Below are positions 7,143 to 18,927 of a DNA stretch of 64,000 nucleotides, in pieces. The position numbers were made by a program, and so were the translations under genes. Origin of the DNA: Aliiroseovarius lamellibrachiae (GTDB lineage: Bacteria; Pseudomonadota; Alphaproteobacteria; Rhodobacterales; Rhodobacteraceae); NCBI RefSeq assembly GCF_018599245.1, contig NZ_JAHEVJ010000002.1:372001-436000 (forward strand), given 5' to 3'. Within the stretch, counting starts at the first letter, position 1. The number at the start of each line of letters is the position of its first letter. The notes beneath the pieces are model-generated. The model ran no database searches. It worked only from the letters and a program-made list of their open reading frames with translations, and was not told the DNA's origin.

Positions 7143-7257
7143 AGGAGGCCTCCGGAAAATCGTGTAAGCAACAAAAGGACGCTTGATTGCGTATTTTGGC
7201 AACAATATTACTTCGCGGCTGCAGAAAGCAAGCGTTCATTTGCCTCGGGATCCCCCG

Positions 7258-8133
7258 TTAACGCAGGTACCCAATCGCAAAGGTCGGCGTGATCATTTCC
7301 TTTTCCACAAAGGCACTTAGCGCCGTTTGATCGGGTTGATCTGTGGTGCCTGTGTCCTCGCGTGCCAATCCGCCAGTGATGAAAAGAGAATCGATGTCTT
7401 CGCCTTGCGCCCCGCGAATGTCGGTGTGGATGCCGTCACCGATGGCCAGAATGCGGGTGTCGCGCACATCGCGTCCCTCTGCCAGCATACGACGGCGGGC
7501 AAGGTCATAAATCGGTGGGTGGGGCTTGCCGAAATACAGGCTCTCGCCGCCCATTTCCGTATACATTTTGGCCACGGCCCCCGCGCACCATTCGCGGTCT
7601 TCCCCACGGTCCACGACGATGTCCGGATTGGCACAGAGGAGCTTTTGTCCCAGCTGTTTTGCCATCATCAAATCCGCGCGCCACGTCTTAGGATCCGCCA
7701 TCGGGTCAAACGGGCCACAGCAGACAATACCTTCGGCCTCAGACACAGGGACACGGGTGATTTCGACGGGGTTGTCGATGACGTCCATTGGTTCAAAGAA
7801 CCCGGCGTCACGGTCCCATTCGCCCATGAAATAGACCTTGTTGCCCACTGCACCCGTATACATCGCCGCGCGCGCACTGTCGCCTGAGGTGGCGATGGTG
7901 TCGTAGCAATCGGAGGGCACGCCAAACTCGGGCAGCTGCGCCATCACGCCCGCGCGCGGTTTTGGCGAATTGGTCACGAGGACCACAAACCCACCGTTTG
8001 CGCGGTAGGTTCTGAGCGCCGCCACAGCCTCGTCAAACGCGGTGATGCCGTTGTGCACACAGCCCCACAAGTCGACAAACAGCGCGTCGTAATTGGCGGA
8101 AATCTCAGATAGGGCAGTGATGATGCGGGTCAT
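7258..8133 (-). CDS. TIGR01459-type HAD-superfamily protein
   Basis: A 291-residue HAD protein with the NagD/p-nitrophenyl-phosphatase-like cap arrangement (HAD IIA). Motif I is FVDLWGCVHNG: the nucleophile D21 is kept but the usual second Asp (general acid) is Trp23, as is typical of the TIGR01459 group. Motif II is LVTNSPKP, the conserved Lys is in YFGKPHPPIY, and motif III is AIGDGIHTDIRGA. It could be a phosphatase of unusual mechanism or a non-catalytic relative. A single gene, transcribed leftward with its start facing the GlxA-type regulator's 3' end. Confidence 0.88.
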   Translation of the reverse strand: MTRIITALSEISANYDALFVDLWGCVHNGITAFDEAVAALRTYRANGGFVVLVTNSPKPRAGVMAQLPEFGVPSDCYDTIATSGDSARAAMYTGAVGNKVYFMGEWDRDAGFFEPMDVIDNPVEITRVPVSEAEGIVCCGPFDPMADPKTWRADLMMAKQLGQKLLCANPDIVVDRGEDREWCAGAVAKMYTEMGGESLYFGKPHPPIYDLARRRMLAEGRDVRDTRILAIGDGIHTDIRGAQGEDIDSLFITGGLAREDTGTTDQPDQTALSAFVEKEMITPTFAIGYLR

Positions 8134-9910: not shown

Positions 9911-10831
9911 TTAAACAGCCAGGTTCGGGATGATCTGCTTTTTGCGGCTCATGATGCCGGGCAGGACCACGGTGTCGCCGGTGACGGTCGCACCGAAGCT
10001 TTTCTCAGCAACGGTTTTCACCAGATCGTTTGGCACAAACAGGGTGGCTTCTTCGTTCAGGATGTCGACGACGAACAGCAGCACTTGGTCCAGCGCGTCT
10101 TCTTTGGCGACATCTTCAAACGAAGCCATCAGTTCGTCTTTGCGGTCCAAAATCATTTTCGGTGCGGTGGTTTCCAACACACCCACGCGGAATTTTGTGC
10201 CGTCAACTTCGAACACTTTGCTGTCGAGGCGGCACAGTTCAGCGGCCGAGAACGCAGACACATCTGATTTCGCCTCAAACATTTCGGACGCGTATTCCGA
10301 GATATTGATGCCGAGATCCGCCGCCAGCTGCTCAGTCACTTCGCGGTCGTGATCGGTGGTGGTGGGCGAGCGGAATTCCAGCGTGTCGGACAGGATACAG
10401 GTCAGCGCGGCGGCTTTGATGTTGTCGGGCATTTTCGCCGCATCATCGCCCATCAGGTCAATCATAATGGTCGCGGTGCAGGCCAAGGGGCGGATGGTGA
10501 TGTCGATCGGGCCTTTGGTCTCAAGCCCGCCAACCAGCTTGTGGTGGTCGATGATCGCTTGCACATCCGCGCCGTTGATATTGGCGGGCAATTCCGCCGG
10601 GTTGTTGGTGTCCACAACCACACAAGCTTGTCCGTCGGCCACGTCCTCGATGATTTCGGGCATCTCAAAACCCCAGCGTTTCACCATGAACTGGGCTTCG
10701 GTGTTGGGGGTGCCCAAAAGAACGGGCTTTGCGTCGATGCCCTTTACTTCGTTCAGATACCAAGCCCAAACAAGGGGCGATCCGGTGCTGTCGGTGTCGG
10801 GGGATTTATGGCCGAATACAAGCGTGGTCAT
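9911..10831 (-). CDS. ppaC: Manganese-dependent inorganic pyrophosphatase (family II)
   Basis: Hydrolyses pyrophosphate to phosphate, driving biosynthetic reactions. The 306-residue length is typical of the DHH-superfamily class II enzyme. Metal ligands are visible: H8, D12 and D14 in GHKSPDTDS, D74 in VVVDTNN, and H96/H97 in DHHKLVGG; the C-terminal SRKKQ substrate-binding motif is present. The start at 10831 (MTTLVFGH) is chosen over an upstream in-frame start at 10969 whose 46 extra residues do not resemble the family. Divergent from the DUF2161 gene across the tandem array. Confidence 0.95.
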   Translation of the reverse strand: MTTLVFGHKSPDTDSTGSPLVWAWYLNEVKGIDAKPVLLGTPNTEAQFMVKRWGFEMPEIIEDVADGQACVVVDTNNPAELPANINGADVQAIIDHHKLVGGLETKGPIDITIRPLACTATIMIDLMGDDAAKMPDNIKAAALTCILSDTLEFRSPTTTDHDREVTEQLAADLGINISEYASEMFEAKSDVSAFSAAELCRLDSKVFEVDGTKFRVGVLETTAPKMILDRKDELMASFEDVAKEDALDQVLLFVVDILNEEATLFVPNDLVKTVAEKSFGATVTGDTVVLPGIMSRKKQIIPNLAV

Positions 10832-10968
10832 GGGGTCATTCCGTCTTTGCAATAAGGAGTTTGGGGGCCTTATAGGGGGGGGCTGCGATCTTGTCACCTG
10901 TGTTCGCGCTGACATTAGGCGGATGGGGTGCGGTCTTTTATTTGATTGACGAGCGCTCTGGCGTTTCA

Positions 10969-11100
10969 TTTTCTAGAAAACTAGAAAACTAGAAAACTAG
11001 AAAACTAGAAAACTAGAAAACTAGAAAACTAGAAAACTAGAAAACTAGAAAACTAGAAAACTAGAAAACTAGAAAACTAGAAAACTAGAAAACTAGTTTT
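10969..11100. repeat. Tandem array of the octamer CTAGAAAA (15 copies)
   Basis: Fifteen perfect, contiguous 8-bp units CTAGAAAA run from 10973 to 11092 and end in CTAGTTTT. The left flank is TTTT, so the array starts with the palindrome TTTTCTAGAAAA and ends with the palindrome AAAACTAGTTTT. It contains 16 CTAG tetramers in 124 bp. As 8 is not a multiple of 3 and CTAG contains TAG on both strands, stop codons occur in all six frames, so it is non-coding. It ends 22 bases before the GTG start of the DUF2161 gene and begins 137 bases upstream of ppaC. Confidence 0.97.
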
Positions 11101-11121: not shown

Positions 11122-11784
11122 GTGGGCAAAATCGCTGAAACAGATCTGTATGACCCGGTGAAATCTTGGCTTGAGGGATTAGGGTATGAGGTGAAGGCTG
11201 AGGTTGGTGCGGCTGATGTGATGGCGCTCCGCGAGGGTGAAGCCCCGGTGGTGGTTGAGCTGAAGACCGGATTTTCACTGACCCTTTTGCAACAGGCCGT
11301 GGCCCGGCAAGCCATCACCGATCACGTCTATGTCGCGGTGCCGCGCTGGGCCGGCAAGGCAGGATGGCGGACGTTTAAAGGCAACATTGGCCTGTGTCGC
11401 AGGCTCGGTTTGGGCGTGTTGTCGGTGAAGGTGAAAGAGGGCGCGGTGCAGGTGCATTGTGACCCGGCGCCGTATCAACCGCGCAAATCCAAGGTGAAAT
11501 CTGCCCGTTTGTTGGGCGAGTTTGCCAAGCGCGAAGGCGATCCCAATACGGGGGGCACGCGCGGCAAAATCGTCACGGCCTATCAGCAAGAGGCCGAAAA
11601 GCTGGCCGCACATTTGGCCGCGCATGGCCCGATGAAAGGGGCGGAGTTGGTCAAGGCTACGGAAGTTTCGCGCGCCACGCGGATGATGGCGGACAATCAC
11701 TATGGCTGGTTTGAACGGGTTGAGCGTGGGGTGTATGGATTGACGGACACGGGGCTGGACGCGGCCAAACTCATCCGCAAGTAA
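11122..11784 (+). CDS. DUF2161 protein, PD-(D/E)XK nuclease-like
   Basis: A 220-residue protein of the DUF2161 family. Residues 1-95 look like a PD-(D/E)XK phosphodiesterase core: E-V-G-A-A-D-V-M-A-L-R, then V-V-V-E-L-K-T-G, with Asp and Glu-x-Lys in the expected order. The C-terminal 70 residues resemble a winged helix (AAHLAAHGPMKGAELVKAT ... RGVYGLT), probably for DNA binding. Biological role unknown. The start is GTG at 11122, preceded by AGGCAGGGGG and, 22 bases further up, by the octamer array. Stop is 11 bases before the FNR box of the peroxidase gene. Confidence 0.8.
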   Translation: MGKIAETDLYDPVKSWLEGLGYEVKAEVGAADVMALREGEAPVVVELKTGFSLTLLQQAVARQAITDHVYVAVPRWAGKAGWRTFKGNIGLCRRLGLGVLSVKVKEGAVQVHCDPAPYQPRKSKVKSARLLGEFAKREGDPNTGGTRGKIVTAYQQEAEKLAAHLAAHGPMKGAELVKATEVSRATRMMADNHYGWFERVERGVYGLTDTGLDAAKLIRK

Positions 11785-16731: not shown

Positions 16732-17511
16732 ATGTTGAAACGTTTGTTCGCCGCCAGCGCCCTTTGTATTGCCTCAGCCCAGTCTGCCTCGACCCAGTCT
16801 GCCCCAGCGCAGCCAGCCACGGACGAGTGCGTGGTGCTGCTGCACGGGCTTGCGCGTTCGCCATCTTCGCTTTGGGTGATGGAAGAGGCGCTGAGCGCCG
16901 AGGGCTATACGGTGGTCAATCTGGGGTATCCATCAACAAAAGCGGAAATTGATATTCTTGTCGAAGCTGCGATCCCACCAGCCGTAAAGGCGTGTGGGGC
17001 GCAAAAAATCAACTTTGTCACCCACTCGATGGGCGGCATTCTTGCGCGCGTTTGGTTGCAAGACCACCGTCCTGAAAACATGGGCCGTGTGGTGATGTTG
17101 GCACCCCCGAACAAAGGGTCGCAGTTGGTTGATGCCTTTCAATCTCTTGAGCCGTTTGAATGGATCAATGGCCCGGCGGGGCTGCAATTGGGAACCGATG
17201 AAAACTCGGTGCCCAATCACGTAGGGCTGCCCAATTATGAGGTGGGCGTGATTGCTGGGAACCGCTCGATGAACCCGATCTACTCAACATTGATTGAGGG
17301 GGAGGACGATGGGAAAGTGTCGGTCGAAAGCACCAAGATTGAAGGGATGACGGATCACATTGTCTTGCCGGTCACCCATACGTTTATGATGACCAATCCG
17401 CTGGTGATTGCGCAAGTGATTGGATTTCTCAAGCAGGGAACGTTTGAGAAAGACCTGACCTTGGGCACCGTCATTGAACGGGTTGCAGACGAGGCAGGAT
17501 ATCTGGATTGA
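16732..17511 (+). CDS. Secreted lipase/alpha-beta hydrolase
   Basis: A 259-residue exported hydrolase. The N-terminus is a signal peptide ([19 protein letters not shown]) followed by a short Ser/Ala/Gln-rich linker. The catalytic core has the oxyanion segment [15 protein letters not shown], the nucleophile in [12 protein letters not shown] (THSMG instead of the commoner GHSxG), and a late His (PVTHTFMM). This matches bacterial triacylglycerol-lipase-like or PGAP1-like proteins. The start is placed at 16732, not at the longer frame start 16585, because the latter runs through the preceding terminator. Confidence 0.8.
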
Positions 17512-17526
17512 CGCTTCAGAAATGAA

Positions 17527-17552
17527 AAAAGCACGCCGTGCGGCGTGCTTTT
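17527..17552. terminator. Bidirectional terminator between lipase-like gene and hemN
   Basis: AAAAGCACGCC-GTGC-GGCGTGCTTTT: perfect 11-bp stem with A-run and T-run arms, between convergent genes. Confidence 0.9.
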
Positions 17553-17571
17553 CAGGTGTGTTTAGAAGTGC

Positions 17572-18927
17572 TTACACCGCTTGGCTGTGGCCTGCGGCAT
17601 TCATCTCATAGGCGTCAAAATGACGGGCAATGATCCGCGCCAAGGGGCGTGATGCCTCATGGATGGTCAAGACATTGTCCGAAAGGTCAAAGGTATCAGG
17701 CATAGCGTCTGCCAGACCGTCGGCCATCGACACAAGCCGGGTCACATCGTCATGCAGCTCTTGCGCGACCTGTGCGAAATCGACTTTGAAATCGCATAAG
17801 ATCAGTTCGATAATCCGGCTGCGCACCCAGTCATCCCCGCCAAAGGCGTGGCCTTTTGAGACGGACAAATTACCCGCGCGCGCAGCGGCTTGGTATTTGG
17901 CTGTGGCTGGTTCGTTTTGGGCGTAACCTTGCGGGTAACGGGAAATGGAACTTGCCCCGACACCGATCAACACTTGCGAGGTATCTTCAGTATAGCCTTG
18001 GAAATTGCGGCGCATGGTGCCTGCTTTATGCGCGGTGGCAAGCCCGTCGTCAGGCAGGGCAAAATGGTCGATGCCAATTTCAACAAGGCCCGCATCCAAG
18101 AACATATCCCGCGCGGTGTTGAAAAGCTCTAGCCGCTCTTCTGCAGACGGCAGCGCTTCTGTTGGGATCAGGTTTTGACGGCGCGCCATCCACGGCACAT
18201 GCGCATAGCCAAACAAGGCCACGCGGTCGGGGCCAAGGCTGATCAGCTTCTCAACCGAGTCCGTAATCCGGGCTTGGTTCTGGTGGGGCAACCCATAAAG
18301 GATGTCCATGTTCAGACTGGTGATGCCGCGCGCGCGCAGCCCATCCACCGTCTGTTTGGTGATCTCATAGCTTTGCGGGCGACCGATGACCTCTTGGATC
18401 ATCGGATCAAAGTCCTGCACGCCGATTGAGGCACGGTTCATCCCCGCGGCGGCAAGCGCGTCTAGACGGGCGTCATCAACCTCGGACGGATCGATTTCAA
18501 CCGAGAACTGGGCGTTCTCAGCCAAGGGCATCGTGTCCAGAATGGCGGCGGTCAGATCAGTGATCATGTCCGGTTGCAACAGGGTTGGCGTCCCGCCGCC
18601 CCAATGCAGGTGTTCGATTTTCACGCCGGGCGCCACAAGCCCCTTGATGGTCGCAAGCTCTGTCTTGAGGCTTTCAAGATAGGCGGCCACGGGTTCGGCT
18701 GTTGCGGTGCCTTGCGTGCGACACGCACAGAACCAACACAACCGGCGGCAAAATGGGATGTGAACATAGAGCGACACAGTGTCGCCTGCTGGGATCGCCT
18801 GGATCCAGTTCGCGGCGGTATCGGGGCTGAACCCTGGCTTGAAGTGCAGAGCGGTCGGGTAGCTCGTGTAACGAGGAACCCGCGCATCAAAAAGTCCAAG
18901 GCGTCTGAGTTGCGTAAGTGTTTGCAT
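17572..18927 (-). CDS. hemN: Oxygen-independent coproporphyrinogen III oxidase
   Basis: A 451-residue radical-SAM enzyme that decarboxylates coproporphyrinogen III without oxygen, in haem synthesis. The cluster-binding motif is C60-x3-C64-x2-C67 (HIPFCRRLCWFCAC), followed by HWGGGTPT and the NMDILYGLPHQ segment. The start at 18927 (MQTLTQLRRLGLFD) fits the family; an in-frame start at 18963 would run into the FNR box. It is divergent from fnrL with the box between them, so low-oxygen induction by FnrL is expected. Confidence 0.96.
   Translation of the reverse strand: MQTLTQLRRLGLFDARVPRYTSYPTALHFKPGFSPDTAANWIQAIPAGDTVSLYVHIPFCRRLCWFCACRTQGTATAEPVAAYLESLKTELATIKGLVAPGVKIEHLHWGGGTPTLLQPDMITDLTAAILDTMPLAENAQFSVEIDPSEVDDARLDALAAAGMNRASIGVQDFDPMIQEVIGRPQSYEITKQTVDGLRARGITSLNMDILYGLPHQNQARITDSVEKLISLGPDRVALFGYAHVPWMARRQNLIPTEALPSAEERLELFNTARDMFLDAGLVEIGIDHFALPDDGLATAHKAGTMRRNFQGYTEDTSQVLIGVGASSISRYPQGYAQNEPATAKYQAAARAGNLSVSKGHAFGGDDWVRSRIIELILCDFKVDFAQVAQELHDDVTRLVSMADGLADAMPDTFDLSDNVLTIHEASRPLARIIARHFDAYEMNAAGHSQAV

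Follow-up and report, generated by a model that had tools for sequence, protein, structure and literature searches.

The octamer array upstream of a DUF2161 gene in the window (the whole stretch of 64,000 nucleotides that was analysed) is one of at least 20 arrays of CTAGAAAA dispersed through its own genome, and we give roughly equal chances of being right or wrong to the reading that these form a dispersed family, specific to one clade, of hairpin cassettes that face promoters and expanded by slippage. The tally, which answers a search for further arrays proposed in the initial annotation, comprises 18 right ends, the array at C1:44191 (with AAAA after it) and the array at C16:44093. Perfect arrays of at least four copies in 331 kb of the genome are all of this unit (18 of 18, no other unit), in a sample that consists of the window and 18 stretches chosen for carrying arrays. 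The window array and its surroundings comprise the following features:

9911..10831, minus strand: divergent neighbour gene with DHH and DHHA2 domains (start at 10831 picked by eye), by eye a manganese-type pyrophosphatase
10946..10951, plus strand: TTGACG, minus-35-like box directed into the array (from the letters and a four-species comparison)
10967..10972, plus strand: CATTTT, candidate minus-10 hexamer, suggested by the TTGAC alignment, with a strict consensus scan against it
10973..11096, plus strand (A-strand on plus): the array, (CTAGAAAA)15 CTAG (Tandem Repeats Finder and the letters)
11097..11100, plus strand: TTTT right end, which gives AAAACTAGTTTT, the centre of the founding palindrome
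11122..11784, plus strand: DUF2161 gene, putative PD-(D/E)XK phosphodiesterase, a neighbour outside the repeat family

According to Tandem Repeats Finder, the window array has a period of 8, 15.5 copies, a 100% match and a score of 248, the second-best array within the window scoring 68, which bears out the perfect octamers and 16 CTAG initially described for 10973-11096. The array matches no known RNA family (801 bp searched; two matches elsewhere lie far below the gathering score), and a CRISPR was ruled out, as the perfect 8-bp units are contiguous and lack unique spacers. An assembly artefact is excluded, as three other assemblies have arrays with other copy numbers at the orthologous site, and no array lies at the 12 own contig ends inspected (6 of 20 contigs). 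Copy numbers from other draft genomes are unsafe because arrays do occur at contig ends there. The window contains 47 CTAG, 16 inside the array and 31 outside, and whole-window shuffles average 54. The earlier description of CTAG as a rare word holds in a milder form, since it is moderately rare, at 0.68 of expectation (106 vs 156.6 in 330 kb of the own genome with arrays masked). CTAG-specific restriction was rejected as a driver, as this depletion is no stronger than that at the sampled, partly overlapping and gene-rich loci of array-less relatives (0.47).

All of the 19 arrays inspected are intergenic, and they occur in every orientation relative to their neighbours, the genes and orientations coming from crude ORF picks. 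At two of them the first CTAG provides the TAG stop of the preceding gene (rnpA and hemC). Most neighbours are unrelated housekeeping genes, and those that match Pfam are of an ordinary kind, among them rnpA and yidD, hemC, mutS, purA and secG, two genes of the uracil-DNA-glycosylase family, D-Tyr-tRNA deacylase, NUDIX and DctM. A check for replication-strand bias placed the A-strand on the G-rich strand in 41, on the C-rich strand in 23 and in flat sequence in 21 of 85 arrays, and intrinsic terminators are present at the left edge of some arrays (e.g. L055 and L058), not in general. The DUF2161 gene begins with a GTG 25 bp beyond the end of the last CTAG and matches Pfam PF09929 (E 3.2e-40); it had been proposed that leader slippage in the array alters the expression of this gene as a contingency switch, or that the array binds its product. 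Copy number does vary at the locus and the TTGAC is directed at the gene, but at least 19 further arrays in the own genome adjoin other genes, and 17 of the 21 genus genomes lack an array although the gene is there, so a DUF2161-specific array is not supported and such a switch would be quite improbable. DNA matching the gene is present in 21 of 21 genus genomes, and its product was set aside as the cognate protein on this distribution.

The history of the family can be followed at orthologous loci in the genus. CTAGAAAACTAGAAAACTAG was found in 4 of 101 genomes (the own genome and 100 relatives), all 4 among the genus's 21, and a genome-wide search found no array anywhere in the other 17. The four array species form one clade with a local support of 1.000 in a tree of rnpA and yidD. 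In all 17 array-less species these two genes overlap at ATGA, whereas each of the four array species has an array inserted between them together with some 20 to 26 bp, the first CTAG serving as the rnpA stop; at least between rnpA and yidD, a cassette was thus gained before this clade diversified. The four species carry at the window locus 15 copies, 6 copies, one copy plus ten of CCAGAAAA, and 1 copy, so that array length does change, as initially proposed. Ten of the other 17 could be read across this gap and have no array there; in six the flanks are about 815 bp apart, and no comparison came from G011 (56% complete). KMU-50, a related species, carries eight copies of CTAGAAAA directly behind a terminator-like hairpin that follows a gene resembling HemN (named by eye), and window positions 17511-17572 are an empty site, without an array where KMU-50 has 8 copies. 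Copy numbers differ between species across orthologous loci, a mark of phase-variable contingency loci, and single variant units have been multiplied (CCAGAAAA ten times, CTGGAAAA 14 times and CTAGGAAA ten times), in a grouping of loci in which a few groups join neighbouring, non-orthologous sites.

The octamer itself changes little. At the window locus, rnpA-yidD and L145 (loci chosen by their flanking genes; at L145, G019 yielded just one flank), all but one of 11 locus-species cases have the unit CTAGAAAA, whereas the spacer beside the window array matches at 8 to 11 of 22 positions between the two halves of the clade. The constant octamer beside diverged spacers therefore suggests that the octamer is held by selection or by a genome-wide copying process, as neutral turnover at independent loci should have altered it. 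A neutral satellite, that is, a palindrome spread once by chance or hitch-hiking that now merely slips without function, would account for unrelated neighbours, random gene orientation and length changes among loci, but this constancy and the inward TTGAC rule described below speak against it, and we consider it unlikely. At L145 an ArsR-like gene (7220-7534, minus strand; Pfam HTH_20) adjoins the array, and array-less genus members with both flanks readable have tens of bases between the neighbouring genes. The ArsR-like gene and the array may have come together, and this gene was considered as a candidate CTAG binder.

Short copies make the origin of the arrays visible. The founding unit is the octamer palindrome AAAACYRG-AAAACTAGTTTT-CYRGTTTT, and the short copies in the sister species show all or part of AAAACYRG-AAAA-CTAG-TTTT-CYRG-TTTT; 5 of 11 CTAG-centred copies have both arms (L355, L356, L357, L359 and L360), and two of the 11 are interrupted by N. 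AAAACTAGTTTT occurs 14, 9, 13 and 12 times in the array genomes G000, G001, G008 and G019, respectively, and once in total across the other 17. TTTT or TATT continues the array in 43 of the 91 arrays with sufficient flank, and the arrays are, to judge from these copies, the founding palindrome with one arm expanded. The two palindromic caps initially noted at the window array, TTTTCTAGAAAA and AAAACTAGTTTT, are both present, but the left one is not general: the left spacer in about 90 tabulated Rhodobacteraceae arrays is AAAA in 44, TTCA in 17 and TTTT in 5. The right-hand palindrome is a family signature and the left-hand one is not.

REP and REPIN sequences are likewise palindromes dispersed between genes, and the short palindromic intergenic unit would suit an element of the REP type, mobilised by a Y1 (RAYT) transposase that was possibly lost after the spread. 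However, there is no Y1_Tnp match in G000, G001 or G008 (G008 being 87% complete), and G019 is the sole array genome of the four with Y1 (IS200-type, 8 matches), compared with 5 of 14 controls. Such mobilisation was rejected because three of the four array genomes lack a resident Y1 transposase, and we regard it as extremely improbable. The CTAGAAAA cassettes also differ from REP and REPIN in that one arm grows in tandem.

The strongest positional rule concerns TTGAC. Between 22 and 40 bp outside the array, TTGAC points inward in 39 and outward in 1 of 81 Rhodobacteraceae arrays, and 42 of the 81 are without it; farther out, at 41-59 bp, there are 2 inward and 0 outward, and by chance about 4% of random points carry TTGAC, or about 3 of 81. 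The 81 arrays have full flanks on both sides and were drawn from 120, of which 24 were dropped by locus as other groups and the rest for short flanks; L115, not named as Rhodobacteraceae, is still included, and the counted arrays are partly orthologous and hence not independent. In the own genome 13 of 19 arrays have an inward TTGAC. At the window locus the start of TTGAC lies 27 bp ahead of the array's first CTAG in every one of the four array species, though the spacer has diverged, and the TTGAC distance is conserved in 15 of 16 orthologous pairs, the exception (L147/L315) arising because the array edge is drawn differently there. Outside Rhodobacteraceae no such bias is seen (2 inward and 2 outward of 22), and this, like the 42 arrays that lack TTGAC, counts against the preferred reading.

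When the arrays are aligned on TTGAC, the minus-10 position tends toward a CATTTT- or YAGTTT-like hexamer (the window array being anchored on TTGAT at 31, not on TTGAC at 27), and in arrays with TTGAC on the T-side the first CTAG itself (TACTAG) tends to occupy this position. With such a placement the start of the array would coincide with, or closely follow, the stretch of a promoter that melts. The strict consensus scan found no promoter at the window array. Counted for TTGAY over all groups, the next gene opposes the direction of the box 31 times in 46, so the box is not simply a gene promoter. A terminator-like hairpin lies at the right end of the window array on the minus strand (2 found vs 0.6 expected in the region), and an inverted-repeat end is present in 14 of 25 A-side TTGAC arrays, 2 of 14 T-side ones and 11 of 42 without TTGAC, so that the order promoter, array, hairpin suits the A-side TTGAC arrays only.

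In the explanation that we prefer, a palindromic cassette most likely spread once into intergenic gaps; it occupies 20 or more sites in the own genome. One arm then grew and shrank independently at each site, and single variant octamers were multiplied 10 to 14 times. In single-stranded DNA, CTAG-N3-5-CTAG could form hairpins of 4 bp with a 3-5-nt loop, and these would favour slippage to more or fewer copies, perhaps assisted by the open DNA of the abutting promoter and by transcription. Such a rule on loop size would explain why units are 7 to 9 long and why spacers are free; it accounts neither for the choice of CTAG over other palindromes nor for the CCAG array, which is incapable of a CTAG hairpin and counts against hairpin slippage. 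Selection would hold the octamer, most simply as a transcribed leader plus hairpin or as the site of a CTAG-reading protein. As RNA, the seed is predicted to form 14 pairs at -16.1 kcal/mol (z -5.0), three array ends have predicted z of -3.9, -5.8 and -2.4, and the whole window array has z -6.3 with an open centroid, this open centroid fold speaking against the preferred explanation.

A more specific version is that the cassettes are miniature transcription units, in which a TTGAC promoter would be followed by an initially transcribed (AAAACUAG)n array and then by a palindromic hairpin that ends in a run of U, the unit frequently running antisense to the next gene. Such units would make self-pairing CUAG-repeat RNAs or pause the polymerase at the array, and a CTAG-reading factor would police the sequence genome-wide. 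This version is fairly unlikely as it stands; if true, it and the CTAG factor would also explain the CTAG-N3-5 arrays of unrelated marine bacteria. These came to light in a wider search. Among the matches listed from a scan of genome contigs are Aliiroseovarius, Halocynthiibacter, Paenihalocynthiibacter, Thalassobius I31.1, Maritimibacter, Robiginitomaculum, Vibrio, Photobacterium, Thalassotalea and Pseudoalteromonas, along with two genomes of Bacteroidales type, so that alpha- and gammaproteobacteria have the octamer unit in common. One unit genome-wide that also turns up in distant bacteria (among the matches listed) could point to templated synthesis, with a reverse transcriptase or telomerase-like enzyme writing the octamer at breaks or promoters. 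Against this, blocks of different units occur in one genome and in one Vibrio array, and the sites are inherited orthologously in the clade, which leaves such an enzyme very improbable.

Some Vibrio, Photobacterium and Thalassotalea genomes carry CTAG arrays with other spacers. In 14 of the genomes with listed matches there are 3 to 846 CTAG-N3-5 triples per strand vs 0 to 28 for the reversed pattern, with Vibrio maerlii at 846 vs 8 and two of the 14 (G483 and G489) below control. A 360-kb sample of V. maerlii has nine runs of at least three CTAG, in which CTAG is constant and the spacer mostly purine and variable (AGAG, AGG, AAAA, ATAA, AAG, GAA, GCA and AAA). The CTAG arrays of 7- and 8-bp units (CTAGAGAG and CTAGAGG) are numerous in this species, with examples at L403 4-159, L410 19418-19557 and L408 15659-15739, two of them at contig ends. 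The Bacteroidales MAG UBA4353 (L121 1467-1646) has 260 CTAG-N3-5 triples per strand vs 0 in the control, mainly at 9-bp steps with varied spacers, and these may be of coding origin. A viral carrier was rejected, as viral contigs contain no CTAGAAAACTAGAAAACTAGAAAACTAG; 75 viral stretches have CTAG-N4 runs of other kinds, and in none of them do AAAA spacers form a run.

The main rival to the hairpin cassettes is a CTAG-reading factor. TrpR and MetJ recognise tandem sites spaced by 8 bp, and the trp operator, found at few sites at the trp genes, has CTAG half-sites with this spacing. The CTAGAAAA arrays resemble it in the 8-bp CTAG spacing and differ in having up to 16 CTAG beside unrelated genes. 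In a protein-binding lattice, CTAG every 8 bp would be the putative site of a cooperative regulator or nucleoid protein, the arrays acting as strong or decoy sites in which the spacers are minor. In Vibrio and others CTAG is indeed constant as the spacer changes in its letters and in its length (3-5), and the unit is conserved across species; the neighbours, however, form no coherent set, and CCAG and CTGG arrays exist, and we judge the lattice somewhat unlikely. Four CTAG at 8-bp steps are found in 4 of 390 genomes sampled from the order (the own genome, one more with CTAGAAAA, one with CTAGAGAC and one mixed), and the reversed control (GATC) at 8-bp steps in 9 of 390, mostly as single runs. 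CTAG is thus not the sole palindrome that forms such runs, and the distinctive feature is the number per genome. A perfect CTAGAGAC array (L287, genome G191) lies in another genus of the order, and genome G123, likewise from another genus, has eleven GATC-run matches at 8-bp steps.

To our knowledge, no mechanism of spread has so far been available for dispersed intergenic short tandem repeat families that recur in unrelated bacteria. The CTAGAAAA family offers a branch-dated gain, filled and empty sites (rnpA-yidD and window 17511-17572), a copy-number series at orthologous loci, a visible founding palindrome and a strong positional rule in the promoter-like box that points inward, so that origin, expansion and function become testable inside one genus; if the promoter link holds, repeat growth would be tied to transcription start sites. 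No report of CTAG arrays was found among open-licence PMC papers. New here are the founding palindrome, the occupied and empty sites, the rule that TTGAC points inward, and a CTAG core that unrelated marine bacteria share and whose spacers are free. Both marks of STRR-type repeats are found for CTAGAAAA, namely many dispersed intergenic arrays of one 7-8 bp unit and a unit common to distant lineages (among the matches listed).

Nearest in kind are the TAACTGA (PMC4679880) and GGGNATC (PMC4692102) repeats. TAACTGA direct repeats are described in Beggiatoaceae, Cyanobacteria and Bacteroidetes (MacGregor, 2015; PMC4679880) and, like CTAGAAAA, are short tandem units between genes of distant lineages, with neighbours that have no common function and a mechanism of spread reported as unknown. 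They are a heptamer of other sequence, in the best-studied strain located mostly just upstream of start codons, whereas the CTAGAAAA arrays are built from an octamer around CTAG, go back to a palindrome, and have TTGAC pointing inward and neighbours in any orientation. The heptameric GGGNATC repeats of Xanthomonas and Nostoc share dispersed intergenic arrays of variable copy number, but they form G-quadruplexes and prefer four copies, neither of which is true of CTAGAAAA arrays (PMC4692102). The tandem repeats of archaeal Borgs are also perfect, A-rich and rapidly evolving, and differ in comprising many different units on linear extrachromosomal elements (PMC9879509).
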